Part shown: one piece after another, positions 11,610 to 31,023 of the stretch | How positions within the stretch are numbered: the first letter of the stretch is position 1 | Layout of the letters: the number at the start of each line of letters is the position of its first letter | From: Lachnospiraceae bacterium | GTDB taxonomy: Bacteria; Bacillota; Clostridia; Lachnospirales; Lachnospiraceae | Assembly: GCA_910574195.1 (NCBI GenBank) | Contig: CAJTBF010000022.1 | Location: 1-36,662, forward strand | Direction: 5' to 3' | Length of the DNA stretch: 36,662 nt | Notes under the pieces: generated by a model | Databases searched by the model: none | Told to the model about the DNA's origin: nothing | Seen by the model: only the letters and a program-made list of their open reading frames with translations | Position numbers and translations under genes: made by a program

Positions 11610-11951
11610 TTAAGAATGTATCATTGATTTATAGGAATTTCCCCATGCTTCCATAGCGTCAAGAATCGGGCGCATTGTTTCCCCTAATTCTGACAGAGCA
11701 TATTCAACTCTTGGCGGAACCTCTGCATATACAGTGCGGGTAATGAGTCCGTCCGCCTCCATAGACTGCAGGCTGTCCGTTAGAACTTTCTGGCTGATAC
11801 CGTCCAGATTTTTCTGCAATTCATTAAAACGCCATGGGCGTGTCCGCAGATTGCGGATGATCAACAGTTTCCATTTATTTCCGATGAGTTGAACGGTTGT
11901 AGCTACCGGGCATTCAGGCAGCAATTCGGCTTTTTGGCTGGATTTACACAT
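11610..11951 (-). CDS. HxlR-family transcriptional regulator
   Basis: The 113-residue winged-helix protein has the HxlR hallmarks: CPVATTVQLIGNKWKLLI near 14-31, RFNELQKNLDGISQKVLT near 42-59, and the wing with PPRVEYALSELG near 84-95. Cys14 sits where redox-sensing members such as HypR and YodB keep their reactive Cys, so thiol or quinone sensing is plausible. It is divergent from a gene stump at 12149 with a GGTTAC-A6-GTAACC palindrome between them. The start codon and first codons (MCKSSQKAE) lie inside a truncated transposable element, so the ancestral N-terminus may have differed. A weak minus-strand promoter (TTGTTG, 17 nt, TATGGT; 11997-12025) overlaps the element's end. Confidence 0.85.
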   Translation of the reverse strand: MCKSSQKAELLPECPVATTVQLIGNKWKLLIIRNLRTRPWRFNELQKNLDGISQKVLTDSLQSMEADGLITRTVYAEVPPRVEYALSELGETMRPILDAMEAWGNSYKSMIHS

Positions 11952-11998
11952 TCTTACGGACTTTGCAGCAAGTGCAAAGTCCTGGGATGAACTGTTAC
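11933..11998 (-). repeat. Truncated copy (A) of the ~140-bp GTAAC-ended non-autonomous transposable element
   Basis: This 66-bp stretch matches the reverse complement of the left half of copy B (15638-15780) almost base for base: the TTTACAC block, the GGACTTTGCA/TGCAAAGTCC hairpin and the terminal GATGAACTGTTAC. The other half is missing or unrecognisable where the sequence enters the HxlR coding region. Confidence 0.8.
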
Positions 11999-14082: not shown

Positions 14083-15561
14083 ATGCGCGATACGGAAAAG
14101 CTGATAAAACCCCTGACCGAAGCGAAGTATTTGAATGCGGATAATGTGGATCGGTATCGGAGCATTATGCGCATTTTTTATGAGAATTATGAAAAATTAA
14201 AATATTGGATGTACCAGGAAGAGGTCTATGCCGAGATGATACAGGATCCTTATTTTTCTGAGTATCGGATGGAACAGTGCCAGCAGGACCTGGCGGCGCT
14301 GACCGAGTGGAGGAACCTGTCCACGCTGCAGGATGCGAGAAAGGTTTCCTCACTGGAAGAATTTAAGAATAAGAAATTCCGTTATCAGATGTCGCAGTAC
14401 AGTGTGGAGATTGAACGGCTGGTTCTTCGGCTGGAGAATCTTTTCATAGAGGGGGCTTCGCTGGAACCCACCCTGTTGGAGCGAATCCGGCGTGAGATCG
14501 AGAAATTTCCGGATATGCAGGAGAAGAGTGCGGAAGAAGTCTATACCTGGTGGAATGATCTGAACAATGATTTTATCCGGCTGAATCAGAATTACCAGGA
14601 TTATATGCGGGATCTGAACAGCGTGAAAGCAGAAGAGATGATGCGGACGAAGGAATTCCTTGTGTTTAAGGACAAGCTGGTTGAATATCTCCGCAACTTT
14701 ATCAAGGGGCTGCAGCGCAATGTGGGAGTGATTGAGGAAAACCTGCGCCTGCTGGACCGGACGATACTGGAGCCGGTGCTGGAAAAGATCAGCCGGTATG
14801 AACTTTCCATTCCCAGAATGGATGCGGAGGTATCCCGGGAATTGCTGGAAGAAAAAGTAAGGGGACGCTATCAGAGTATCCGGGACTGGTTTGTGTCCGA
14901 GAATGGGCAGGAGAACGAGGCGGGAAAGTTGTTCGATGCGACCAACGAAATTATCCGCAGGATTACCCGCTATGCGGCGCAGTTAAGTGAGAAGAACGCG
15001 CTGGGCGCCAATCGTCGGGAAGAGTACCGGAAGGTGGCGGAGCTTTTTCTGAAATGTGCCGACCTGTCGGAGGCACAGAAGATGTCGGCCATGGTATTCG
15101 GCCTGGAACGTCCGTTTCATCTGCGCGGGGAAGCTTCCCGGGAGACGGAGAGCATGAACCGGAGCGTCTATGAAGAGGGCGCAATGGAGTATGTGTTAAA
15201 ACCAAGGATACGGACGTACAGGGAAAAGTCGAGACGGAGCGCCATTGCAGATGCAAGCCGGAAAAAGGAAGAGATGCGAAAGCAGATGATGCGGCAGATG
15301 CAAGAAGACCGGAAGAAAATCAAGATGCTGGAACAGGATGGGCGAATTGATTTTTCCGCCCTCCCGGTTCTGGAGCCGCGGGTACGGGAGATTTTGCTGA
15401 AATGGCTGTCGGACGCGCTGGAAGACGGGGCTTATCGTGCGAAGACGGAGGACGGCAGGGCTTACCGGCTGGATCTGGAGCGGGCGGAGAACAATTGTGT
15501 GGTACACTGTTCAGACGGAAATTTTACGATGCCGTGTATAAGTATTGTCTTTCAGGAATGA
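14083..15561 (+). CDS. jetA: Wadjet type III subunit JetA (DUF2397/TIGR02677 family)
   Basis: The 492-residue protein opens with a segment (YLNADNVDRYRSIMRIFYEN) typical of DUF2397, followed by long helices. JetA is the kleisin-like subunit that bridges the SMC heads of JetC in the Wadjet complex, which extrudes and cleaves small circular DNA such as plasmids. The assignment rests on this N-terminus, the length, and its position first in a four-gene set with clear DUF2398, TIGR02680-type SMC and DUF2399 partners. GGAGG lies 10 nt before the ATG. A 292-nt gap carrying a transposable element separates it from jetB, which is unusual for an operon that elsewhere has a 63-nt gap and an overlap. 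Confidence 0.88.
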   Translation: MRDTEKLIKPLTEAKYLNADNVDRYRSIMRIFYENYEKLKYWMYQEEVYAEMIQDPYFSEYRMEQCQQDLAALTEWRNLSTLQDARKVSSLEEFKNKKFRYQMSQYSVEIERLVLRLENLFIEGASLEPTLLERIRREIEKFPDMQEKSAEEVYTWWNDLNNDFIRLNQNYQDYMRDLNSVKAEEMMRTKEFLVFKDKLVEYLRNFIKGLQRNVGVIEENLRLLDRTILEPVLEKISRYELSIPRMDAEVSRELLEEKVRGRYQSIRDWFVSENGQENEAGKLFDATNEIIRRITRYAAQLSEKNALGANRREEYRKVAELFLKCADLSEAQKMSAMVFGLERPFHLRGEASRETESMNRSVYEEGAMEYVLKPRIRTYREKSRRSAIADASRKKEEMRKQMMRQMQEDRKKIKMLEQDGRIDFSALPVLEPRVREILLKWLSDALEDGAYRAKTEDGRAYRLDLERAENNCVVHCSDGNFTMPCISIVFQE

Positions 15562-15637
15562 AACAGGGAAGATCATTGCAGGAAACCCTACGATGTGAAA
15601 GGATACCGTTATGGAAGGATGTAAGGGCAGTATCCAA

Positions 15638-15780
15638 GTAACAGTTCAGCCCAGGACTTTGCACTTGCTGCAAAGTCCGTAAGAACGTGTAAATTCAGCC
15701 AAAGAATCCAGCCCTTTGCTGAAAGCAAACTTTAAATGGGCTGGATTCCGTAACAGTGAGGCCGGAGGCTGAACTGTTAC
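15638..15780 (+). repeat. Full copy (B) of the GTAAC-ended non-autonomous transposable element
   Basis: This 143-bp element has perfect 14-bp terminal inverted repeats (GTAACAGTTCAGCC and GGCTGAACTGTTAC). The flanks GTATCCAA (15630-15637) and GGATCCAA (15781-15788) match at 7 of 8 positions, consistent with an 8-bp target duplication. Inside are three hairpins: GGACTTTGCA/TGCAAAGTCC (15654-15678), GAATCCAGCCC/GGGCTGGATTC (15704-15748, with a nested TTTGC/GCAAA) and GTAACAGT/ACTGTTAC (15750-15780). No ORF of note lies within. It sits between jetA and jetB on the operon transcript. Confidence 0.85.
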
Positions 15781-15853
15781 GGATCCAAAGTGAAGCGGAA
15801 CATATAGTTATAGGAATTGTGGGAATACAGGCGGATGCGAGGAAAACAGAACG

Positions 15854-16990
15854 ATGCAGGAACTGGAACTTTTATTGGACAGGCGATGGATTTTAAAGTC
15901 GGATGAGAAAGAACTGTATTATAAGGTGCGGGATTCGATCGGGGAAATCCGCAAATTTGCGACGGAAAAGATGGGATGCCAGTTGATTGAGAATTCGCTT
16001 CTGGTAAAGCTGGAGAAGATTCCGGCCATTGCGGAACCGTTTATGGGAATTTCCGAATTTACTTCCCGGGAGGAATATGCGTTCCTCTGTGTGCTGCTGA
16101 TGTTTTTAGAGGACCGGGACGCGGAAGAACAGTTTATTCTTTCGCAGCTGACGGAGTATATTGCGTCCAATATGCCGGGCGACCCTGTGGACTGGACCGT
16201 ATTCAGCATCCGGAGGAAGCTGGTGAAGGTGCTGCGTTATGCGGTGAGTCAGAAAATCCTGCGGGTGACGGACGGCAGTGAGGATGTGTTCATGGACCGG
16301 CAGTCAGGGGAAGTGTTATATGAAAATACAGGCGCTTCCCGCTATTTTATGCGAAGCTTTTCCAGGGATATTATGGATTACGGAAGACCGGAAGATTTTC
16401 AGGAGAGCGACTGGTTTGAAATGGACGAGGATCGGGGAATCGCCAGAAGGCACCGGGTATACAAGCGGCTCCTGTTTTCGGTGGGGATGTACCGGGAAAC
16501 CGATGCGGAGGAGGATTTTGAATATCTGAAATATTATGGCAGGCGCCTGGTGGAAGATCTGGAACAAAACTTCGCGTGCCGGGTGCATCTGCATAAAGGA
16601 AGCGCGTTTTTTCTGATGGGCGAGGACTGCCACATGGGAAAAGCGTTCCCGGGCAATAATGCCGTATCGGATATTCTTCTGCTTTGCTGTGCAAAGATCC
16701 GGGAGAGGGTGGAACAAGGGATCTGGGAGACACAGAAAGACGAGACGATATCCGTGGAAATTCTGGAATTTGAACAAATGTTAAAAGAAGTAAAAACAGA
16801 ATTTGGAAGCGGTTTTACAAAGCATTACCGGGAAATGCCGGACGGGGAATTCCTGCGGGAAATTCTGGGAGAACTGGAACAGTGGACCTTTGTGAAACAG
16901 GAAGAGAAGGAACACCGAGTGGTGATTTACCCATCGGCCGGAAAAGCGGCGGGACGTTATCCCGGGGATTATATACAGAGTGCAGAATAG
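15854..16990 (+). CDS. jetB: Wadjet type III subunit JetB (DUF2398/TIGR02678 family)
   Basis: The 378-residue protein begins with LLLDRRWILKSDEKELY and continues with KLEKIPA and FTSREEYAFLCVLLMFLEDR, the conserved N-terminal blocks of DUF2398. JetB is a KITE-like winged-helix protein that binds JetA and helps hold the SMC complex together. The ribosome site before ATG 15854 is weak (GAGGAAAA), and upstream lies the transposable element, so translation may differ from jetA. jetC follows after 63 nt. Confidence 0.88.
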   Translation: MQELELLLDRRWILKSDEKELYYKVRDSIGEIRKFATEKMGCQLIENSLLVKLEKIPAIAEPFMGISEFTSREEYAFLCVLLMFLEDRDAEEQFILSQLTEYIASNMPGDPVDWTVFSIRRKLVKVLRYAVSQKILRVTDGSEDVFMDRQSGEVLYENTGASRYFMRSFSRDIMDYGRPEDFQESDWFEMDEDRGIARRHRVYKRLLFSVGMYRETDAEEDFEYLKYYGRRLVEDLEQNFACRVHLHKGSAFFLMGEDCHMGKAFPGNNAVSDILLLCCAKIRERVEQGIWETQKDETISVEILEFEQMLKEVKTEFGSGFTKHYREMPDGEFLREILGELEQWTFVKQEEKEHRVVIYPSAGKAAGRYPGDYIQSAE

Positions 16991-17053
16991 TTCCGTGCAA
17001 AGTGTGCGGCCGTGGATGTGAAAAGTAACAGGAAAACAGACAGGAGACGAAAG

Positions 17054-20000
17054 ATGAACAGTAGATGGCAGGCAAGTAAAATCGGACTGATTAATTTCTG
17101 GTATTATGATGAGCAGGAGTTTCCGTTTGTAAAAGGGCGGATGCTGCTGCGCGGTTCGAACGGTTCCGGAAAATCGGTGACGATGCAGAGTGTGATTCCG
17201 CTGCTTCTGGACGGGAACATGAGTCCCGAACGTCTGGACCCTTTTGGATCTAGGGACCGGAAGATGAGCAGCTATCTTCTGGAGGAAGACGACGGAAAAG
17301 AGGAGCGGACCGGATATCTGTATCTGGAATTTTGTCGGCAGGAGAGCGAAACCTATCTGACCATAGGAATGGGGATTCGGGCGAGAAGAGGAAAACCGCT
17401 GGACAAATGGTATTTCAGCCTGACCGACGGAAGAAGAATCGGGAAAGACTTTTATCTGTATAAAGATACCGGGGAAAAGGTGACATTGTCCAAAAAGGAA
17501 CTGGAGAATCGAGTGCAGGGCGGCGGCCAGGTGTTTGACCGGCAGATGGAATATATGGAATATGTAAACCGGCAGATCTTTGGATTTGAGACGGTGGAAG
17601 AGTATAAGGAGATGGTCGATTTACTCATCCAGTTACGTACGCCCAAACTGTCCAAGGATTTTAAACCTTCCGTGATCAATGAGATTTTAAGTGATTCCCT
17701 GCAGCCTTTGTCGGATGAAGACCTGCGTCCCATGTCGGAGGCCATTGAAAATATGGACGTGATGAGTATGAATCTGAAAAACCGGCAGGAGGGGAAGCAG
17801 GCGGCGGAAAAAATCAATCGGATTTTGAACCGGTACAATCGTCTTACTTTATATGAAAAAGCGGGAAATTATGAAGACAGTCAAAAGGAACTTGCCCTGC
17901 TGCAAAAAGAAGAGAAGGACAGGCGACAGAAGAAGCAGGACTGTCTGCTGCGCGTGGAGGAACTGGAAAGGCGCAGGCAGGAACTGGACGCGGAAAAAGC
18001 GGCCCGGGAAAAGGAACGGGAGTCTCTGAATCAGAGCGACGCGGTAGCGCTGAAAAGCAGGGAGATGGATCTGGCTGCAAGGATCGCGGAGAAAGAAGCC
18101 ATATGTAAAGAAAAAGAAGAGCAGCTTACCGCAAAGCAGGAACAGTACATTGAGACGGAGACCCAGCGAAAAGAAGAGCAGGACAGGATGTACCAGAAGG
18201 AACGGGAGTTGTGCGCGCTGCTTACAGAAATGCAGGCGGAAGCGGAGGAAATGGCATTTGAAGAGCATGGGTTTCTGCAAAGTGAATTGCAGGAGGCGTT
18301 TCAGGAACCCTATTCTTTTGGCACCCATCAGATGCAGTTTGAAAAGACACAGACAAAGATCCGGCAGGGACTTTCGGTTTTGCAGAAGGCAGAGATCCAG
18401 AAGGAGAAGGTAGAAAATCTGCTTCGGGAGCGGGAAGGGCATCGGCGGAAGAACGATACCGCACAGCGGCATGTGCAGGAGACAGAAAATGTGCTGGTAC
18501 AGGCACAGAATGAATGGATAGAAAATTTTTACGGATGGTGCGGCAGGAACCGGGAACTGATTCTGGATACGGAGCTGCAAAAGGAACTGGCACGGTTTGC
18601 AGAGGACTACGGGGCACAGTCTGACTTTGCGGGCGTGCGGCAGGCCGTGGCGGACGTCTGGATTGAAAAAAAAGGAAATCTGGAATCCCGGATACGTCTG
18701 TGCCGGGAGCGAATTTCCGTACTGCAGGAAGAATATGAGACATGGCAGAAAGAGTTATCGGAGTGGGAAGACTTTCGGGAGCCGGAACCGCCGCGCAGTG
18801 AGGCGGTATGCAAAAACCGGGAACGGCTTGAGAGGATGCAGATCCCCTATCAGGAGTTTTACAAACTGATTGAATTCGGGCAGGATCTGGATCAGACGGC
18901 CTGTGACCGGCTGGAGGAAGCGCTGCTGCATATGGGTATTCTGGATGCCCTTGTGATTGAGGAACAGTACAAAGAGCAGGTGTTGCAGGAGGATGCAGGC
19001 TGCCATGACAATTATCTGTTCGTACAGAAGCAGCGTGCCGGAAAAAGTATATTGGATGTGCTGGATCTGAATGATTCTGTCAATGATATTTTCTTCAATC
19101 AGAGAATCACCGGAATTCTGGAAAACATCGCCTATGAGGGAGAAGGTACGACGGCGGTATCGGCGGAAGGAACTTACCAGATCGGCGTGCTGACCGGTAC
19201 GGTGACGGGGACGCATGAAGCAGGATTCATCGGAACAAGGGCCAGAGAACAGCGCCGGCAGAGGAAGATCAGAGAATGCAGGGAGACATTGGCGGCGTTG
19301 GCGGCGGATCTGGAAATACAGCGGGAAGAGACAAAAGAGCTGGACCGGCGGATCCGGCTGCTGTCGGAAGAATACGAAAATCTCCCTGCTGAGGAAGATC
19401 TGCGGGTGGCATATCGTATGCTGCTGGACGCACAGCGGGAGGCAGAACAGCTGGAAAAAGAGGGAAAGCGGCTGGAGGAACAGGTCCGGGAAGCGTCCGG
19501 GGAACTTCAGGAACTGAAAAAGGAAGCCTTACAGATCGCGGAAGGCCTGTATCTTACGTGCAGTTATGAGACCTTTGAAAAAGCAGATACGGCGGCCCGG
19601 GAATATGGACAGCACTTCTATCAGTTAAAAGCGGGGCATGAGCTTTATCTGCAGATGGTATTTCATCAGCAGGAATTAAAAAACAGATTGGAGGATCTGG
19701 ACGCTGACCTGGATCAGATTCGTTATGACAAGGGGAATACAGAGCGGGCGCGGGAAAAAGAATGTGCGGAGTACCGTCTGGTGCAGGAGCAGTTGAAACT
19801 GACTGATTATGAAGAGATCCGGGAACGTCTGGATGCCTGTCTGGACTGGCTGCATGCTTACCCGCGGGAACTGCAAAGCTGTATGGAGGAAAAAGGACAG
19901 AAGGAGCAGCAGGTCCGGCAGATCCAGGAGCAGTTGGAGCAGAGCGCGCAGAGAATTCAGGTGTGTGTCCGACAGAAGGAATATTTGCGGAAGTGCTATG

Positions 20001-21367
20001 AGGCGGAACTGGAACTTGGGATGGTGGAACTGCCCAAGGAGGATCCAGAGTCGGGAAAGGCCGCAGGGCGGCAAGGAGGAAATGAGAATCCGGCGAAAGA
20101 AGATAAGGAGACCATGAGAAGGGAAAAATCCGGCATGGAGCGGGATGGAGAACACGGAGGAGAGGAGGACAGGAAGGAAGATGTCCGGTTCCAGGCGGAG
20201 GAATATAAAGAAAATGCAGACGGAACAGGAGGAACCCGGTCCCAGGCGGAGAAATACAAAGAAAGTGCCGGGAAGGTGCGCAGCCTCTTGGAACCGGATT
20301 GTCAGAATCTGCAAAAAGAAGCGGTGATCGCTGATCTGAACCGCATTTATTTTGAAAATCGGGGATTTTTGAACGATTACCACCTGATGCAGACCGAGTT
20401 ATTCGAAGAATTGGAAGAAGAACGGGCGGGGCGGGGGTATCCGGCGGCAAAACGTCTCGCGATCTATGCACGGTATCAGGGCGTGAGAATTCCCTTCGGG
20501 AAACTGCTGCATTATCTGGAAGAGGAAATTGCGGAGCTTCGGGAACTGATCAAAGCCGGAGACCGGGAATTGTTTGAAGACATCCTGGCCAATACGATGA
20601 GCAGGAAGATACGCGGAAAAATCAACAGTTCCAACGCATGGGTGGAAAAAATGAATGTTCTGATGGGGGCGATGAACACTTCCAGCGGATTGAAACTGAG
20701 TCTGCGCTGGAGAAGTAAAACGGCGGAACAGGAAGACCAGTTGGATACCAAAGAACTGGTGGGACTTTTGAAAAAGGATTATCGTCTGATGCGGGAGGAG
20801 GAAGCCGCCCGTTTATCTCTGCATTTCCGTTCCAAGGTGGAAGAGGCAAGAAGACACGCGCGGGACAGCGGAGGGATGATTTCCTTTTATCAGGTGATGA
20901 AGGAAACACTGGACTACCGGAAATGGTTTGAGTTCCAGCTTCTTTATCAGAAAAGCCAGGAAAAACAGAAAGAGCTGACCAACAGCGCTTTCGGGACATT
21001 CAGCGGCGGAGAGAAAGCCATGTCCATGTATGTGCCGTTATTTTCTGCCGTTGTGGCGAAATATCAGGGCGGGCGCGCGGACGCACCGCGTCTGATCTCG
21101 CTGGACGAGGCGTTTGCCGGGGTAGACAATAAAAATATCCGGGATATGTTCCGTCTGATGACAGAATTTCAGTTTGATTTTATTATCAATTCGCAGGTGC
21201 TGTGGGGAGACTGTGACACGCTGGACGCGCTGGCCATTTATCAGTTGATCCGGCCGGAAAACGTCAGGTTTGTAACGGTGATGTCCTATCTGTGGAACGG
21301 ACAGGTGAGGGAGATGTTGGAGGATGAAAAAGAGCTGGAACAAAGAGCCGCAGGATTCGCAGTGTAA
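17054..21367 (+). CDS. jetC: Wadjet type III SMC-like ATPase JetC (TIGR02680 family)
   Basis: This is an SMC/MukB-like motor of 1437 residues. Walker A is G34-SNGSGK-S41, the ABC signature S1317-GGEK, and Walker B ends in D1351-E1352 (ISLDEAF). Long Glu/Gln/Arg-rich coiled coils lie between about 255-480 and 800-1180, with a hinge-like segment between. The N-terminus (WQASKIGLINFWYYDEQEF) matches TIGR02680 well. ATP-driven loop extrusion by JetC is how Wadjet senses small circular DNA. An insertion at about 992-1079 is low-complexity Glu/Lys/Gly and holds a near-duplicate (FQAEEYKENADG and SQAEKYKESAGK). ATG 17054, with AGGAG 7 nt upstream, is preferred over the in-frame GTG at 17012. Confidence 0.92.
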   Translation: MNSRWQASKIGLINFWYYDEQEFPFVKGRMLLRGSNGSGKSVTMQSVIPLLLDGNMSPERLDPFGSRDRKMSSYLLEEDDGKEERTGYLYLEFCRQESETYLTIGMGIRARRGKPLDKWYFSLTDGRRIGKDFYLYKDTGEKVTLSKKELENRVQGGGQVFDRQMEYMEYVNRQIFGFETVEEYKEMVDLLIQLRTPKLSKDFKPSVINEILSDSLQPLSDEDLRPMSEAIENMDVMSMNLKNRQEGKQAAEKINRILNRYNRLTLYEKAGNYEDSQKELALLQKEEKDRRQKKQDCLLRVEELERRRQELDAEKAAREKERESLNQSDAVALKSREMDLAARIAEKEAICKEKEEQLTAKQEQYIETETQRKEEQDRMYQKERELCALLTEMQAEAEEMAFEEHGFLQSELQEAFQEPYSFGTHQMQFEKTQTKIRQGLSVLQKAEIQKEKVENLLREREGHRRKNDTAQRHVQETENVLVQAQNEWIENFYGWCGRNRELILDTELQKELARFAEDYGAQSDFAGVRQAVADVWIEKKGNLESRIRLCRERISVLQEEYETWQKELSEWEDFREPEPPRSEAVCKNRERLERMQIPYQEFYKLIEFGQDLDQTACDRLEEALLHMGILDALVIEEQYKEQVLQEDAGCHDNYLFVQKQRAGKSILDVLDLNDSVNDIFFNQRITGILENIAYEGEGTTAVSAEGTYQIGVLTGTVTGTHEAGFIGTRAREQRRQRKIRECRETLAALAADLEIQREETKELDRRIRLLSEEYENLPAEEDLRVAYRMLLDAQREAEQLEKEGKRLEEQVREASGELQELKKEALQIAEGLYLTCSYETFEKADTAAREYGQHFYQLKAGHELYLQMVFHQQELKNRLEDLDADLDQIRYDKGNTERAREKECAEYRLVQEQLKLTDYEEIRERLDACLDWLHAYPRELQSCMEEKGQKEQQVRQIQEQLEQSAQRIQVCVRQKEYLRKCYEAELELGMVELPKEDPESGKAAGRQGGNENPAKEDKETMRREKSGMERDGEHGGEEDRKEDVRFQAEEYKENADGTGGTRSQAEKYKESAGKVRSLLEPDCQNLQKEAVIADLNRIYFENRGFLNDYHLMQTELFEELEEERAGRGYPAAKRLAIYARYQGVRIPFGKLLHYLEEEIAELRELIKAGDRELFEDILANTMSRKIRGKINSSNAWVEKMNVLMGAMNTSSGLKLSLRWRSKTAEQEDQLDTKELVGLLKKDYRLMREEEAARLSLHFRSKVEEARRHARDSGGMISFYQVMKETLDYRKWFEFQLLYQKSQEKQKELTNSAFGTFSGGEKAMSMYVPLFSAVVAKYQGGRADAPRLISLDEAFAGVDNKNIRDMFRLMTEFQFDFIINSQVLWGDCDTLDALAIYQLIRPENVRFVTVMSYLWNGQVREMLEDEKELEQRAAGFAV

Positions 21368-22655
21368 AGCCTGTGTGGAGTATCTCCGGGAATATCCGGT
21401 ATTTGAGAAGGTGTTAAAAGGATTCCGGGAAAAATATCGTTCTTACGGTAGTTTTGCCGGTACGGTGACGCTGCGGAATCTGACGGAAGAGGAACGGGAG
21501 GTTCTGGAGGGATTTTTTCAGAAAAACTATCATGGTCAGAAAAGCATATCTGTTTCAGCAGCCCGGTTTGAAAAGGCGCTGCAGGAAAGCCGGTTTGCGG
21601 GCGTATCGCCCCGGGAAGTGCTGGAAATGTATTTTCAGGAAGAACTGACAGGCAGGAGGGAGCAGGAAAGAGAAGAGGAAGGGAACTGGAATCGGATGCT
21701 TGCCAACCTGCGGATGCAGTGTACCGGAATCCGGGAGGAAGACTGGGTGAAGGAACTGGAAGATACCCGGAGCGGCATGTATTTTTACCTGCGGAAGCGT
21801 TACCGGGAGGCGGGAAAGAACATGGAGGAAGTACAGCGTCTGGTGCGGCTTGGAATCCAGGCGCTGCGTCAATTGCCCTACCGGCAGGGACGAATGGAAT
21901 ATCTGGCGGTTTTTGCGGCTCTTCTGACGGGGGATCCGCATGGATTTGACGAGGGAACGAAAGACGGAGCGTTTCTTCGGATGTTGGTGGAATGGGATAC
22001 GAAACAGCGGAACATCCGCATTGAGGCATCAACGCTCTTCCCGGCGCTTCGAAAGCAGCGGCTTTATCTTACCGTGGGAATTTTGCGGGACGACGTGTCC
22101 AATTATGTGATGGTGTCCGGGATGCAGGCATGGAAAAAGGACGGAAGTATGCATACCGGAATGGAAGGCTTTCGAAGGGACGGAGATCCGGTGCAGGTGC
22201 CGTTGTCCGTAGTTGCAGGATGGCAGCGTGTTGCCTGTCCGGATCAGGAGATGTATATTGTGGAGAACCCTTCCGTATTTGCCATGTTGTGCAGGAAATG
22301 GCGGGGAAAGAGAGCCTGTATGTGTATGAACGGGCAGCCCCGTCTGAGTTCCGTATTGCTGTTGGATTTGCTGGCGGAGGCAGGAACGAAAATATATTAT
22401 GCCGGTGATTTCGATCCCGAAGGTCTGTTGATCGCGCAGAAAGTAAAGCAGTATTACAGGGGGGAGGCTGTTTACTGGCAGATGTCCGTACCCGTGTACG
22501 AAAGGAGCCGTTCCGGGAAAATGATACCTGCAAAACGAATCAGGGCGCTGGGACGAGTGACGGATCCGGAATTGGCAGAACTGGCGGAAGTAATTCAGAA
22601 ATACAGGACAGCAGGATATCAGGAGAACGTATGGAAAGTCTATTTTGAGAAATAA
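21324..22655 (+). CDS. jetD: Wadjet type III nuclease subunit JetD (DUF2399, TOPRIM)
   Basis: JetD is the DNA-cleaving subunit, related to topoisomerase VI/Spo11. The C-terminal TOPRIM-like DUF2399 domain keeps its acidic residues: E314 in IVENPSVF and D362/D364 in YYAGDFDPEGLL. The N-terminus (FAGTVTLRNLTEEEREVL near 34-51) is the DNA-binding part typical of TIGR02679. At 443 residues it is full length. Its ATG lies 44 nt inside the end of jetC, with AGGGAG about 10 nt upstream, so translation is coupled. No clear terminator follows; the next promoter starts 7 nt after the stop. Confidence 0.9.
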   Translation: MKKSWNKEPQDSQCKACVEYLREYPVFEKVLKGFREKYRSYGSFAGTVTLRNLTEEEREVLEGFFQKNYHGQKSISVSAARFEKALQESRFAGVSPREVLEMYFQEELTGRREQEREEEGNWNRMLANLRMQCTGIREEDWVKELEDTRSGMYFYLRKRYREAGKNMEEVQRLVRLGIQALRQLPYRQGRMEYLAVFAALLTGDPHGFDEGTKDGAFLRMLVEWDTKQRNIRIEASTLFPALRKQRLYLTVGILRDDVSNYVMVSGMQAWKKDGSMHTGMEGFRRDGDPVQVPLSVVAGWQRVACPDQEMYIVENPSVFAMLCRKWRGKRACMCMNGQPRLSSVLLLDLLAEAGTKIYYAGDFDPEGLLIAQKVKQYYRGEAVYWQMSVPVYERSRSGKMIPAKRIRALGRVTDPELAELAEVIQKYRTAGYQENVWKVYFEK

Positions 22656-24433: not shown

Positions 24434-27400
24434 ATGAAGAGAATGGTTTCATTCCTGCTTGCTGCAGCGCTGATCCTGACTCCTGCCGCGCAGGTTTTGG
24501 CAGTGGAGCCTGCCGGTTCGGCTGTAACGGAAGGGAATCAGCCGGAAGGGAACTCCGGTAAGACAAATCAGAATCCGGCAACGGCAGACAAGCCAGGGAC
24601 AGAAGACGGACTTCCGGAGACAGGGCCGGATGGCCAGGAGGAAGGAAATCCGGCGGCAGGGGAGGAAAAGCAGCCGGAATTCACAGCAGCAGAGACCGGA
24701 CAAAACACAGAAACAGAACCGAAAACGGAAGCGGCAGATGCAGAGGGAGCGGATGCGGACAGTCAGGCGGAAGGTTCTGCAAGACAGAATTTACGGACTG
24801 ATATGGGGCAGGTTCATGTGTCTGTCGGGGCAGCAGTGATTTTAGAGAAAGAGATTTCGTTTACCGTGGAACTTACGGGGCAGATGTCTCAGACGATTAC
24901 GTTGCCCTCGGATAAAGACTGTCCGGGAGCAGAAAAAACAGTTTCGTTTGAAAAGCTTCCGGAAGGAAACTATACACTGCGAGTGACGGCTCCTGGTTTT
25001 ACCGATTATACGCAAGATATAGAAGTCAGGAACCGGGCGTACACCGTTACTTTACTGACCGGGTTTGTGGCGGGGTATACATACGAAAGAGGTGTCTTTC
25101 ATCCGGGGGTACTTCTGATCGGCGATGTGGAGAAGGACGGTATCATCGACGACAGGGATCGTGACAAACTGGTGAATGCGATTGACGCAGGAGTATCTTC
25201 TGTGGAGACAGACGTAAACGGGGACGGACTCACAGATCTTGCAGATCTGGAATATTTTTCCAGGAGCTATCAGGAAGAGGGAGATACGGAAGCATTTGTG
25301 GAAAATTCTATTTCTACGGATGCAATTACACCGGAAGCAGGAGTCAATACAAAGGTGGAGGGCAATCTTACCGATCTGCTGACCGGAGGCGGAAGTGTTT
25401 TGGCAAGTGCGGCAGGCGGTGAGATTTCAGAATCAAATCCGGTGATATTAGAGTTTCATCTGGCGGAAGATGCGGATACCCAGGCGGACGGAATTCTAAT
25501 TGAGACAAGTAAGGCAAATCCGATTGCAAGAGCGACGGTGGACATTACATACATGGATGCAGACGGCACGGAGGGAAACATCAGCATACCTGTGGAAAAG
25601 GATGTACAGTATTTGTTAAAAGACAGTGATGCGATTCCTTTTCTGGACGGGAATGGGAATATGCAGATCCATCTGGGTTCTCAGATTGCAGTCAAGAAAG
25701 TGACGCTGACGATCAAAGGGATGCAGAACAATAACAATCTTGCGGAGATTTCCAAGGTGCAGTTCCTAAACGGTATGGAAAGCCGGATTCCAAAACCGCA
25801 GATGGATATTCCGCAGAATCTGGCAGTGGAGGAAGCAAGCCGGGAGTTTGTTGTAACATGGGATCCCTGCAAGAATATCACAGGATATGAAGTGTTGATT
25901 TCCAGTGAAGGAAAAGAAGAGACATGGATGGCAAAAGCGCCGATTTTGTCCATATCCTCGTTCCAGGGAAAAGAGCTTGTCAATAAAACCGAGTACCAGG
26001 TACGGGTGCAGTCCGTGAACGGAACATGGAGAAGCGGTTACAGCGACGCCGTGACGGCAGTTCCGCGTGCGAATAAGGTGCCGGATGCCCCGGATAATGT
26101 ACAGGCAGTAGGGAGATATAAGAGCATCGACGTGTCATGGAAGAAAATGAAGGATACGGAGCATTATCGTCTTTTTTACCGTGAGTCGGATTCCGGGGAC
26201 GCTTATCAGGTCATTGAGGGGATTACAGAAAACAGATATACGATTACCGAACTGAAGGACAAGACAAGGTACGAGCTGTACCTTACAGGCGTCAATGAGT
26301 TGGGCGAAGGGAAACCATCGTTGAAAAGCGTCGCGCAGACAGAAAGTCTGGAGCCCGCACAGATGCCGGAATATAAACTGATTAACACGGCAGAAGAGGG
26401 GACTCCGGGAAGCAGCATCACAGGTGCCGTGAGAGGACGCGGAGAGATGAAAGACAGTCCGCTGGATACAGAAGGAAAGACAGCGTGGGGAATGGTAGAT
26501 CATAATCCGGCGTCTTATTACTATGCGGCAGACTGGGATGAAGGTTCTGCATATCCTGATTTTAACAACAAAGGATTTACATTTGCATTTGATCAAACTT
26601 ATACAATCGATACGATCGGATTCCAGGAACTATATGAACAGGGGAATTTCAGCACGGCTGTCGTCGAATACCGGGACGAAGAAAGCGGACAGTTCCAAAG
26701 GGTTTCCGGTGTGAAGGTGGAACGAAGAAGCGACAGGAACGGAAAACATTATTATTTTATACGGCTGGCAGATCCGGTTCGAACGAATCAATTGAGGTTT
26801 GGCGTCGGAAAAAGTAACGGTTATATACGTGAGATTACCATATCGGAAGTATACTTCTATCATTATGATTCGCTGGAAGACGACATCATGGGACTGTACG
26901 AAGACGACCTTCATATGGTGCTGAAAGCAGAAGTAGATCAGAAAACCATTGATACGCTCCGTACCCGTCTCAATACCCAGGATAGTGTAAGCGGAGAATA
27001 TCATCCGGACAGGGAACGTCTGGAACGGGAACTGAAAAATGCAGAAGAGATTTTGAACAATGAATTAGGAAGTCCGATTGGAATTCACAATACCATCACG
27101 ACAAAAGATGTGGGCAGAGGGTTTGGCGGACTGAACGCATGGCAGCCTCTCGGAATTACAGCGGCGGCCGGGGAAGAGATTACAATTTTTGTGGGACATT
27201 CTGCTTTGCAGACGGGAGCGAATACGAATCTGCAGTTGGTGGCGACACAATATCACGCGGAAAGTTCTCCGATGAGCACGACGGTCGCGACTTTAAAGGT
27301 GGGACGAAATGATATTACACTTCCCCAGATCGGTTCCACAGCTGCGGAGCGCGGAGGGGCGTTGTACATTCAGTACACGGGAAACCAAGCGAACGACCAG

Positions 27401-29800
27401 TATGCGGTCCGCGTAAACGGAGGTGTGGAAGTTCCGAGACTGGATCTTTATCAGACGACGGATCCGGCGGAACGGCTGGCGCGTACAGAAAAGTATGTGG
27501 AAGAACTGAAAGTATATACGGCTCAGGTGGAGGCAATGCATGAAGAGCTGCATCAGAATTCGGAAAATGCGCTGGTGAAGTATTCTTATGATGAGAAGAA
27601 TTGTATTTTGGAGGCATCCGACATCCTGATGGACAGTATGATGCTCTCCATTCCTGCAAAGCAGATTTTAGCGGGATGCGGACAGAATGCGCAGACGTTG
27701 CTGGATTCCCTAAATGCAATGGAAGAGATGATGTATCTGTTCTATCAGCACAAAGGCCTGAACAAAGATGCGAAGGATGAGATAGACAGATTACCGAAAG
27801 GACATCTGAATATTCGCTATCAGAGAATGTTTGCAGGTGCATTTATGTATGCTTCCGGGAATCATATCGGAGTCGAATGGAATGAGACGAAGGGACTTGC
27901 AGGTGCGAAACCGGTACAGTCCGTGGACGGAAGATACGAGAGCGGGCAGTATTTTGGCTGGGGAGTTGCCCATGAGATCGGGCATAATATCAATCAGGGC
28001 GCTTATGCTATTGCGGAGATTACGAACAACTATTTCGCACAGTTGGCACAGGCAAAGGATACCGACGAGAGTGTACGTTTTAAATATCCGAACATCTATG
28101 AGAAGGTAACGTCCGGTACGATCGGAAGATCACCGAACGGAGCGACACAGCTTGGAATGTACTGGCAGCTTCACCTTGCATATGACGATGGATACAATTA
28201 CAAAACGTATGAGAATTATGAAGAGCAGCTCGGTCATCTTTTCTTTGCAAGAGTCGATACTTACGCGAGAACGCCTGCAAAAGCTCCGGCTCCGGGTGGG
28301 ATTCTGTTGAAGCTGTCAGGAGATAAGGATCAGGATCTGATGCGTCTTTCCTGTGCGGCGGCGCAGAAGAATCTATTGGAATTCTTCCAACGCTGGGGCA
28401 TGATTCCGGATGAGGAGACGCTCTCTTATGCGGCGCAGTTTGAGATGGAGACAAGAGCCATCTACTATGTGAGCGACGCATCCCGCGTGTACCGCCTGGA
28501 ACATGGAGGAAGCAGTCTGAATGCAGAAGGAACGGTAAATGCCGTAAGCGGCAGTACCTCGGCAGTGGTAAATGCGAATCATGCCGGTCAGGTTGATTTT
28601 GTGCTTGGGGCAGAGAGTAATATCCCGGCGGAGGATGTGCTGGGGTATGAGATTGTGCGCACGCAGATATCCGGAGGAAAAACAGAAAAAGAACTTGCCG
28701 GATTCACAACAGAAAATACGTTCAGCGATTCTATTTTGACGGTGAATAACCGTGTCATTACGTATGAGGTTACGCTGGTGGATAAATATTTGAATCGTTC
28801 GGCAGTGAAAGTTCTTGCTCCTATTAAAATCGAGCATGACGGAAGTATGGAAAAGACGTTCTGGACGGTGACCACACAGAATCTGGAAACGACAAATGAA
28901 GCGGAGCTGGAAGAGGATAATGTAACCTGTAAACCACAGGTGAAAGAACCCATTCAACTGGCGGTAGATCAAAACGGCCAGACGACCTATACGGCTGTTG
29001 TAAGTAAAAATGCCGGGGATGCTGCGATTATGATGGATTTTCACAGGTTCCATGTAATTTCCGGATTCAAATATACCGTTGACGCCGCGGTGGATAAGGC
29101 GAAGAAGATTCAGGATTACGCCATTTATTTCCGGGCGGAAGACGGCGGATGGAAGGAAGCGGCGAAAGGTACATTTGGCGACGGAGACGCACAGACGGTG
29201 TATTTCGGAAACGAGGACGGAACCTATGTAGGCACGTACAGGGCGGATGCGGTAAAGCTTGTCATTTCCGGGCAAAAGGGGTCCGAGATCGCAATTTCGG
29301 AGCTTGACGTGCTTGGCGTGACCGGAGATAACGTGGATTTCCGTGATACAGAAGAGGGAATCCCGGCAATCGGGAAACTTGCGTCTGCTTATAAGTACGG
29401 GAAAAACGAGTCGGATGTGATTCCGGAAGGATCCATTATTTTCACAGGTTCCTATAAAGGAAATCCGGCGTACAATGTGGTTCTGCTTTATGATCAGAAT
29501 GGCAATATTGTAGGCGGAATGAATGCGGATGGCAGCCTGAAGGCGCAGCAGATTATTCTTGCGGATGTGCCGGAGGGCGGGGAAATCCAGGATGTATCAG
29601 ATGGAACATGGATTTACTGGATTGAACCGCAGGATCAGACGAACCTTGACGGACTGAGAGTGCGCGCGGAACTTTACCGTGTGAATAACGCCGAAACAAA
29701 CGAGGGGCAGCGCCTTGTAAGTGATTCTTTATACCGAGAGATTCCGAATGTGTTTCCCGATATTACATTTACCGGGAATGATGCGGCAGGGGAGGAGTAG
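24434..29800 (+). CDS. Secreted multidomain M60-family metallopeptidase (mucinase) with dockerin
   Basis: The 1788-residue protein runs: signal peptide (1-23); acidic Pro/Thr-rich linker (to about 115); a beta domain (118-215); a type I dockerin (about 225-282, calcium loops GDVEKDGIIDD and DVNGDGLTDLAD); a discoidin-like domain (325-450); two fibronectin III domains (455-640); an F5/8-type C/CBM32-like domain (673-812); the M60 domain (from about 885); and a second F5/8C-like domain (1476-1636). The zinc site is H1180-E-I-G-H1184 with E1195 ten residues on, the M60 HExxHx10E form. M60 peptidases cleave O-glycosylated mucins. There is no wall anchor, so the dockerin may tether it to a cohesin. 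AAGGGAG lies 6 nt before the ATG. Confidence 0.9.
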   Translation: MKRMVSFLLAAALILTPAAQVLAVEPAGSAVTEGNQPEGNSGKTNQNPATADKPGTEDGLPETGPDGQEEGNPAAGEEKQPEFTAAETGQNTETEPKTEAADAEGADADSQAEGSARQNLRTDMGQVHVSVGAAVILEKEISFTVELTGQMSQTITLPSDKDCPGAEKTVSFEKLPEGNYTLRVTAPGFTDYTQDIEVRNRAYTVTLLTGFVAGYTYERGVFHPGVLLIGDVEKDGIIDDRDRDKLVNAIDAGVSSVETDVNGDGLTDLADLEYFSRSYQEEGDTEAFVENSISTDAITPEAGVNTKVEGNLTDLLTGGGSVLASAAGGEISESNPVILEFHLAEDADTQADGILIETSKANPIARATVDITYMDADGTEGNISIPVEKDVQYLLKDSDAIPFLDGNGNMQIHLGSQIAVKKVTLTIKGMQNNNNLAEISKVQFLNGMESRIPKPQMDIPQNLAVEEASREFVVTWDPCKNITGYEVLISSEGKEETWMAKAPILSISSFQGKELVNKTEYQVRVQSVNGTWRSGYSDAVTAVPRANKVPDAPDNVQAVGRYKSIDVSWKKMKDTEHYRLFYRESDSGDAYQVIEGITENRYTITELKDKTRYELYLTGVNELGEGKPSLKSVAQTESLEPAQMPEYKLINTAEEGTPGSSITGAVRGRGEMKDSPLDTEGKTAWGMVDHNPASYYYAADWDEGSAYPDFNNKGFTFAFDQTYTIDTIGFQELYEQGNFSTAVVEYRDEESGQFQRVSGVKVERRSDRNGKHYYFIRLADPVRTNQLRFGVGKSNGYIREITISEVYFYHYDSLEDDIMGLYEDDLHMVLKAEVDQKTIDTLRTRLNTQDSVSGEYHPDRERLERELKNAEEILNNELGSPIGIHNTITTKDVGRGFGGLNAWQPLGITAAAGEEITIFVGHSALQTGANTNLQLVATQYHAESSPMSTTVATLKVGRNDITLPQIGSTAAERGGALYIQYTGNQANDQYAVRVNGGVEVPRLDLYQTTDPAERLARTEKYVEELKVYTAQVEAMHEELHQNSENALVKYSYDEKNCILEASDILMDSMMLSIPAKQILAGCGQNAQTLLDSLNAMEEMMYLFYQHKGLNKDAKDEIDRLPKGHLNIRYQRMFAGAFMYASGNHIGVEWNETKGLAGAKPVQSVDGRYESGQYFGWGVAHEIGHNINQGAYAIAEITNNYFAQLAQAKDTDESVRFKYPNIYEKVTSGTIGRSPNGATQLGMYWQLHLAYDDGYNYKTYENYEEQLGHLFFARVDTYARTPAKAPAPGGILLKLSGDKDQDLMRLSCAAAQKNLLEFFQRWGMIPDEETLSYAAQFEMETRAIYYVSDASRVYRLEHGGSSLNAEGTVNAVSGSTSAVVNANHAGQVDFVLGAESNIPAEDVLGYEIVRTQISGGKTEKELAGFTTENTFSDSILTVNNRVITYEVTLVDKYLNRSAVKVLAPIKIEHDGSMEKTFWTVTTQNLETTNEAELEEDNVTCKPQVKEPIQLAVDQNGQTTYTAVVSKNAGDAAIMMDFHRFHVISGFKYTVDAAVDKAKKIQDYAIYFRAEDGGWKEAAKGTFGDGDAQTVYFGNEDGTYVGTYRADAVKLVISGQKGSEIAISELDVLGVTGDNVDFRDTEEGIPAIGKLASAYKYGKNESDVIPEGSIIFTGSYKGNPAYNVVLLYDQNGNIVGGMNADGSLKAQQIILADVPEGGEIQDVSDGTWIYWIEPQDQTNLDGLRVRAELYRVNNAETNEGQRLVSDSLYREIPNVFPDITFTGNDAAGEE

Positions 29801-29803
29801 GAT

Positions 29804-30760
29804 ATGAAAAGCATGAAAAAAATAGTTACAGGGATTGTAATGGCCGTGTTTGTATGTATCGTCCTGCTTCCGTTTCGCGCATCTGCCGCGGAGGAACCGG
29901 AGATTCGGTTTGCGCCGGAGCGTGATGGAGCGAATGTAATATTGACGCTTCCACAGTCGGTAAGAGAGAATGTATATTCCCTTGAGCTGAGCCTGAAAAT
30001 TGAATCAAACGCACAGGAGAAACTGGATGTAGTGTTCCTGTTTGCAGAAGGAATGGCAAAAATTGCAGAGTACCGTTATCATGAGGATACCGGTATTCTG
30101 AACCTCTATCTGTCAGGAAGTGAAGCTCTTTTGAAAGAAGCATCTGTGCAGCTTGGAGAAGTTTCGTTTTCGGCCGGAAATGAAGAGGGAGTTGTCGTAC
30201 AGGTCAGTATTGTGGACGATTCTCTGAGAATCGTAAGCGGTACAAGATCAGAGCCCCTTCCGGGGATCACTTATCCTGAGACGGAGACGATTGAGCTGGG
30301 GAAAGAGAATGGTTCAGGAGGTGATCCTGGACAGGAACCAGGGAAGGAACCCGGCGGCGATAATGGATCCGGCGGGGATACCGGAGAAACGGATCCCATG
30401 CAGGCTTTGCGGGAGGAATTAGAAAAGACGCTGGCGCTGGCAAAAACTTATAAAAAAGCGGATTATACTTCAGACAGCTTTGCCAATTTGGAGAAAGCAA
30501 TCAAGGCGGCGGAGGAAGCACTGCGTAATCCGGACGCTTTGAGGGAGGAGCTGGAGACGGCGCTTCGGAATCTGGAGAATGCAATCGGCGCCCTGGAGAG
30601 TGCGGCGGTTACGCCTGTAACGTCCCAGAAAGCGGCAGAACAAACAACAAAAAGTGTAAAAACCGGGGATCGCACGGAAATGATTTTATGGATCATGGTT
30701 TTGGCGACGAGCATTGGAGTCACAGGCGTTCTTGCAGGCCGCAGAATACGTTACAGATGA
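29804..30760 (+). CDS. Wall-anchored protein with cohesin-like N-terminus and FIVAR domain
   Basis: A signal peptide (1-28) precedes a beta-rich domain of about 130 residues (30-165), with alternating strands such as VYSLELSLKIES and GEVSFSAGN, which looks like a cohesin. A Gly/Pro/Glu linker leads to a FIVAR domain (about 197-265), then VKTGD (about 284-288), a hydrophobic helix and a basic tail, a sortase-type anchor in which VKTGD replaces LPxTG. It starts 3 nt after the M60 stop with GGAGGA 7 nt upstream, so the two proteins are coproduced. The natural reading is that it holds the dockerin-bearing M60 enzyme at the cell wall. The cohesin call is by pattern only. Confidence 0.7.
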   Translation: MKSMKKIVTGIVMAVFVCIVLLPFRASAAEEPEIRFAPERDGANVILTLPQSVRENVYSLELSLKIESNAQEKLDVVFLFAEGMAKIAEYRYHEDTGILNLYLSGSEALLKEASVQLGEVSFSAGNEEGVVVQVSIVDDSLRIVSGTRSEPLPGITYPETETIELGKENGSGGDPGQEPGKEPGGDNGSGGDTGETDPMQALREELEKTLALAKTYKKADYTSDSFANLEKAIKAAEEALRNPDALREELETALRNLENAIGALESAAVTPVTSQKAAEQTTKSVKTGDRTEMILWIMVLATSIGVTGVLAGRRIRYR

Positions 30761-30842
30761 TAAAAACGGGGAAGCTTTCATTGCTGCAGGATTTTTTTAT
30801 AATCAAACGATATATTGTGCGTATCCGCTATTTTGCAACAGT

Positions 30843-30979
30843 GTAACTATTAGCCTACGGCTAAACAGTTACGGAATCCGGTCTCTTTGCCTTATGGCAA
30901 AGAGGCCGAATTCTATTTCAACTGTTATACGTTCTTACGGACTTTGCAGCAAGTACAGAGTTCTGGACTGAACGGTTAC
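30843..30979 (-). repeat. Full copy (C) of the GTAAC-ended transposable element, with 8-bp target duplication
   Basis: This 137-bp element runs from GTAACT to GGTTAC and is flanked on both sides by GCAACAGT (30835-30842 and 30980-30987), a perfect 8-bp direct repeat. It has the same three-hairpin layout as copy B in reverse: GTAACT/AGTTAC with inner AGCC/GGCT; an 18-bp stem (30874-30913) with one mismatch and a TTAT loop; and GGACTTTGCA against TACAGAGTTC, where two of the changes keep G-U pairing. It lies between the M60 operon and the convergent ABC operon. Confidence 0.85.
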
Positions 30980-31023
30980 GCAACAGTTTCTTTTCTGTCA
31001 GAAAATATGACACAATACCGGAT

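Follow-up and report, generated by a model that had tools for sequence, protein, structure and literature searches.

The window, that is, the whole stretch of 36,662 nucleotides analysed from a Lachnospiraceae bacterium, holds two full copies and a half copy of a short sequence with three hairpins, and the locus of copy C raises the question of whether this sequence is mobile DNA and, if so, what moves it. The three copies are members of one non-autonomous mobile family of approximately 130-150 bp, widespread but patchy among the relatives of the host, a reading to which a probability of about 0.7 is assigned. The preliminary description of this DNA had proposed a non-coding, transposable, MITE-like element, and this proposal is borne out by the further copies, the 8-bp target duplications, and a paralogous locus without the element; the element is a real, widespread, structured, miniature mobile DNA. 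The two full copies, half copy A, and the flanking octamers are all present in the window as had been described, with perfect flanks at copy C and flanks agreeing at 7 of 8 positions at copy B (Table 1). The model match of half copy A scores 55.8 bits at 11899-11998. Compared with shuffled sequences, copy B folds with z values of -7.6 and -9.4 on its two strands, and copy C with -5.7 and -7.4.

Table 1. Element copies, their parts, and flanking octamers in the window.
Feature	Position	Strand	Basis
Copy C, full element, 137 bp	30843..30979	minus (model strand)	cmsearch 99.1 bits (training sequence L097)
Copy C, left 8-bp target duplication GCAACAGT	30835..30842		8/8 as L097
Copy C, right 8-bp target duplication GCAACAGT	30980..30987		8/8 as L097
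Copy C, hairpin 1 (terminal palindrome, 30 bp in copy C)	30843..30872		sequence and fold
Copy C, hairpin 2	30873..30913		sequence and fold
Copy C, hairpin 3	30939..30963		sequence and fold
Copy B, full element, 143 bp, between jetA and jetB	15638..15780	+	cmsearch 158 bits (training sequence L001)
Copy B, left target duplication GTATCCAA	15630..15637		7/8 as L001
Copy B, right target duplication GGATCCAA	15781..15788		7/8 as L001
Copy B, hairpin 3, conserved loop around CACTTGCTGC	15654..15678		alignment, fold, covariation
Copy B, hairpin 2	15704..15748		fold, covariation
Copy B, hairpin 1 (31-bp terminal palindrome, elsewhere also alone)	15750..15780		pattern scan of own genome
Half copy A, hairpin 3 and one end	11933..11998	minus	blastn 95% over query positions 1-66; without duplication

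The family and its target sites

A search of the host genome and its relatives, suggested in the preliminary description, retrieves further copies in both. With copy B as the blastn query and a threshold of E ≤ 0.001, the own genome yields 42 places (117 first-look candidates, 40 of which were scored); copy C is absent from these 42, and its identity to other copies reaches 92% over part of its length and 85% over 137 bp. The end motif GTAACWRTTCRGCC, with at most one mismatch, occurs at 144 sites in the own genome versus 7 for the reversed control (about 20-fold), and the near-complete genome of a congener, G006, has 165 such ends versus 0 in the control. Copy B has matches in 10 of 61 genomes, a set made up of the own genome and others from its genus, family, and order, and the covariance model, applied at E ≤ 1e-4 with at most 8 matches scored per genome, finds the element in 81 of the 397 genomes sampled from this bacterial family, corresponding to 72 of 334 genera. 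Among the 80 matches listed for the palindrome pattern in named genomes, most are Lachnospiraceae records, and Clostridiales, Eubacterium, Eisenbergiella (with Eisenbergiella porci among the carrier species), Roseburia, Mediterraneibacter, and one Christensenella are also included. The exact palindrome and hairpin 3 patterns have no match in viral contigs, and copy B has none in plasmids or phages.

The elements carry terminal inverted repeats, which were also a criterion for set selection, and the end form of the family is GTWACWGTTCA; each element has three hairpins, the last of which (31-37 bp) consists of one outer end paired with a partial inner copy of that end. Divergent forms occur in three other genera (L035, L036, L056), each with perfect octamers. 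A 147-bp relative with the ends GTTACATGTCACACC is present at L186:1571-1717, L169:5112-5258, and L187:3279-3425, each time with a perfect 8-bp duplication and in two of the three cases beside another element.

The 8-bp target duplications claimed for the window hold in three sets of loci, each set against mismatched flanks. Octamers were counted for every covariance-model match of at least 60 bits with both flanks, with the ends set at GTAAC...GTTAC. Among the own copies (45 rows minus 3 duplicates), 25 of 42 octamer pairs are equal at 6 or more of 8 positions and 11 are perfect, compared with 16 and 1 of 1722 for mismatched flanks, while the remaining 17 of these 42 model matches fall below 6/8. 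At the loci of named genomes, which had been retrieved by the palindrome pattern (55 rows minus 3 cut by locus ends), the corresponding figures are 43 and 31 of 52, versus 33 and 0 of 2652. Model-found loci taken one per genome give 24 of 29 at 6/8 or better and 15 of 29 perfect, versus 7 and 0 of 812, with two of the 29 (L339, L340) being identical to the training sequences L035 and L036. In one locus (L086:3351-3644, contig C1 of G000), two elements lie in tandem, and the target octamer, GAAAAATC or GAAAAATT, is present three times.

An empty paralogous site was found in G006 (L178), where two tandem units are filled, with GCCAGTAA on both sides of the element, and flank a third, continuous unit of 97% identity, in which the octamer is present a single time and in a form altered at one base (GCCAGTCA). 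At the level of sequence, this comparison shows exact ends and an empty site, and it is compatible with either insertion or clean loss. A weaker, cross-species case is given by L328 and L408, which are 75% identical and have a gap near the junction. Around copy C itself, one neighbouring gene does not keep its place next to it in the genus.

Pairing in the hairpins

The pairing was followed in an alignment of 40 elements that had been picked by their ends, terminal hairpin, and octamers of at least 6/8, and aligned without the use of structure. Hairpins 2 and 3 played no part in the selection; both sides have changed in 22 of their 27 pairs, and the same applies to 31 of 41 pairs in the whole structure, in which 88.9% of the cells are paired versus 74% in shuffles and 26.6-40.1% in slid controls. 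While the stems vary, two parts are near-constant, namely the hairpin 3 loop and the T/A-rich bulge in hairpin 2. In hairpin 1, the paired changes partly reflect how the training set was picked, namely by the terminal hairpin and octamers of at least 6/8; its first seven columns pair in 37-40 of 40 rows, partly through this selection, and the next three (columns 8-10) are unpaired in 7, 26, and 21 of 40 rows. Strict pairing at this point of hairpin 1 is therefore unnecessary, since columns 9 and 10 are unpaired in 26 and 21 rows. The same columns (TTC) pair from one outer end of the element to the other in 38, 40, and 39 of 40 rows, so that the outer ends share GTNAC..TTCA, which the inner arm often does not have. 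The converse claim, that hairpin 1 pairing is kept and end-to-end pairing lost, was rejected, as it relies on one column (39 versus 27 of 40), the set having been selected for this very hairpin, and other columns behave in the opposite way.

Whether such pairing is kept in DNA or in a transcript bears on the earlier suggestion of selection on RNA structure. Selection on a transcript is expected to raise G-U above A-C on the transcribed strand, and the correction of palindromes during replication can generate paired changes with few G-U even without selection. The G-U:A-C counts in three alignments (A1, A2, and A3) are 32:8, 25:2, and 40:13 for hairpin 1, with a G-U excess in each and one column supplying 16 of the 32 G-U in A1; 16:22, 10:14, and 20:26 for hairpin 2, with no G-U excess; and 27:8, 8:8, and 9:12 for hairpin 3, with an excess in A1 alone. 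A1 and A3 have sequences in common, A2 and A3 were fitted to the structure, and the counts refer to the best 55 of 120 rows in A2 and the best 40 of 68 in A3. From these counts, we read the pairing as mainly a DNA-level property, and the hairpins would be kept as a DNA structure, cruciform or single-stranded, rather than as RNA alone; the G-U excess of hairpin 1, and that of hairpin 3 in A1, counts against this reading. The earlier hint of selection on RNA is weak: hairpins 2 and 3 show good conservation, but a G-U excess is absent from hairpin 2 and present in hairpin 3 in one alignment of three; in hairpin 3 of copy C, the G-U-compatible changes amount to two G-T pairs on the plus strand, accompanied by one C-A mismatch.

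A mobile structured RNA, whose transcript is under selection and whose DNA hairpins simply follow, is accordingly given a small chance, although the strong folds on both strands, the covariation in the stems, and the overall G-U counts (75:38 in A1 and 43:24 in A2) would suit it. Against it stand the G-U counts of hairpin 2 in all three alignments and those of hairpin 3 in two of them, together with Rfam, which gives 0 matches above the gathering score in the window and 8 loci; for copy B alone at E ≤ 1, there is one weak miRNA match of 15.8 bits versus the 71.8 needed. Further support for such an RNA comes from orientation: beside co-directional genes, elements point in the same versus the opposite direction 15:8 in the own genome (p 0.21) and 18:3 in the named loci (p 0.0015). 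This skew hints at some effect of transcription, as a strand-neutral DNA element would not need it, and it is taken as a hint only because the gene calls are simple open frames. A terminator role was tried and rejected, convergent gaps being not enriched (6 of 84 intergenic sites versus 15% of the background gap length, again with simple open frames).

The lone palindrome and the candidate movers

The 31-bp palindrome of hairpin 1 also stands alone between octamer duplications in several species. In the own genome, 18 of 23 hand-sorted lone palindromes agree at 6/8 or better and 5 are perfect (control: 6 and 0 of 506). Thirteen of the 23 derive from one exact pattern with 32 sites, of which 19 were set aside as parts of longer elements, and among these thirteen, 10 reach 6/8 and 0 are perfect; the other ten derive from a looser scan, with L074 picked by eye. 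In the named genomes (80 of 108 stretches, with 1 of 38 palindromes set aside), 16 of 37 reach 6/8 and 8 are perfect (control: 14 and 0 of 1332); the misses among the 37 probably include some ends that belong to full elements of another size.

Most likely, the lone palindromes with 8-bp duplications are full elements collapsed in place between two GTAACAGT repeats. The octamers around the lone copies would also suit a palindrome acting as the mobile unit in its own right, with insertions and 8-bp duplications of its own; the long element would then be this palindrome plus extra hairpins. Such a unit is unlikely: two transposase sites would be physically hard to accommodate inside 31 bp, collapse between the outer and the inner GTAACAGT yields an identical product, and in many lone copies the arm GTGAGGCC equals the inner arm of full elements. 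Moreover, the inner arm often has no TTC, which is kept at both outer ends, and this makes such a unit less likely. Equally doubtful is the related idea that a 31-bp DNA palindrome transposes alone, with 8-bp duplications, through an enzyme that reads hairpin DNA instead of two distant ends; if true, it would be one of the smallest such mobile DNAs.

Collapse of full elements leaves the movement of the long form to be explained. A DDE-type transposase supplied in trans would recognise the two outer ends and cut the target with an 8-bp stagger; that neither a transposase nor an autonomous copy was found in the sequence searched counts against this reading. The search for an autonomous copy with these ends considered 249 end pairs in 1.98 Mb, with contigs below 3 kb read as N, and returned none that is convincing; such a copy could have been missed, because the masked contigs are where a repeated insertion sequence would collapse and because about 100 of the 144 and about 100 of the 165 ends were examined. 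Six rows, corresponding to five segments, have octamers of at least 7/8, namely an Rpn composite (two overlapping loci), the segmental duplication of L178, L391, L450, and a weak T-rich pair, L414. The elements L391:188-638 (451 bp, in a record titled Christensenella sp.) and L450:385-950 (566 bp, partly N) have the same kind of ends, different perfect octamers, and an interior of non-coding repeated hairpins.

The mover is probably an enzyme other than that of IS66. An IS66-derived MITE, moved by the IS66 transposase from elsewhere in the genome as the preliminary description had proposed, would account for the 8-bp duplications and for the GTAA ends of most own-genome copies, and the IS66 elements of the genus do make 8-bp duplications (perfect in L166, L168, and L174, 7/8 in L175, and shifted by one base in L169-L172). 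The ends, however, run apart: IS66 elements with definable borders start with GTAAGC in G006 and G007 and, in one case in G009, with GTAAAT (the border scan sought GTAA ends only; in G006, aligning the copies with one another places the borders identically), whereas the sister families with perfect duplications terminate in GTTAC. The transposase profiles PF03050 and PF05717 were searched; PF03050 co-occurs weakly with the element, being present in 36 of 81 carriers versus 101 of 316 other genomes (p 0.04), and it has no match in 13 of 25 element-rich genomes, several of which are incomplete drafts with contigs below 3 kb masked. The own genome has a single PF03050 match (contig C39), with no end pair of either kind in 7 kb, and 0 of 30 IS66 loci gave an end pair with an octamer, in 1.5-kb flanks that rarely show both ends. 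Because the ends differ and the distribution fails, the IS66 label is unsupported, and an IS66 origin is quite unlikely.

The Rpn-family putative transposase (PF12784, TIGR01784) is a very improbable mover. It is brought forward by a 1992-bp segment in G006 with an element copy on each side, an Rpn gene inside, and perfect GTGTAATT flanks. This is a single case, for which cargo between two element copies is the simpler reading; the other 29 of 30 loci have no end pair (at most one mismatch) whose octamers agree at 7/8 or better, a loose 8/8 pair in L218 is read as chance, and G014 and G005 have elements and no PF12784 match. Lastly, DDE_Tnp_1 (PF01609) was rejected, as its definable ends differ, e.g., CAATGTCATTTAGTTA with 10-bp duplications. 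An insertion sequence with those ends, 1907 bp long and with a 10-bp duplication, lies at L296:813-2719 in G006, and the adjoining sequence suggests insertion into an existing three-hairpin element.

Relation to known systems and genomic context

REP sequences and REPINs are not known to leave a target duplication, and on this point the lone palindromes, which have octamer duplications, do not fit among them. The likeness otherwise lies in palindromes of 20-40 bp, single or in larger units, that form hairpins, and the ends here are GTAAC or GTTAC instead of GTAG or CGTC tags. REP sequences and REPINs are the subject of PMC3116915 and PMC3733652. Bacterial MITEs, as reviewed in PMC10969869, are similarly short, non-coding, and intergenic, with inverted ends, flanking duplications, and stable folds; in contrast, here no parent insertion sequence was found in the sequence searched, the three-hairpin plan is kept across genera with paired changes, and one end is also present as a local palindrome. 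MITEPsy1, according to PMC3189936, is likewise a small gene-less element with inverted ends, and differs in its length of 100 nt, its 4-nt duplications, and its probable parent, ISPsy2. The IS66 family shares the 8-bp duplications and, in most own-genome copies, GTAA, after which the ends diverge, and many carriers have no IS66 match. No description of the three-hairpin family was found among the listed titles and abstract openings of the open-access literature. That a single plan recurs in about one fifth of the sampled genomes of this large gut bacterial family, and does so with clean duplications and defined ends, points to a transposition system not yet named here.

The element is, in addition, a source of hairpins that can move and come to rest between genes. 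A defence operon, a Wadjet type II system that is complete by PADLOC models (jetA, jetB, jetC, and jetD; 14083-22655), contains copy B. Within the remnant that is copy A lie the first ATG and the initial codons of the frame of an HxlR-type regulator (11610-11951), this ATG being a candidate start. Toward copy C, a frame of 1788 aa occupies 24434-29800, and a frame of 318 aa with a FIVAR domain (29804-30760) adjoins the element.
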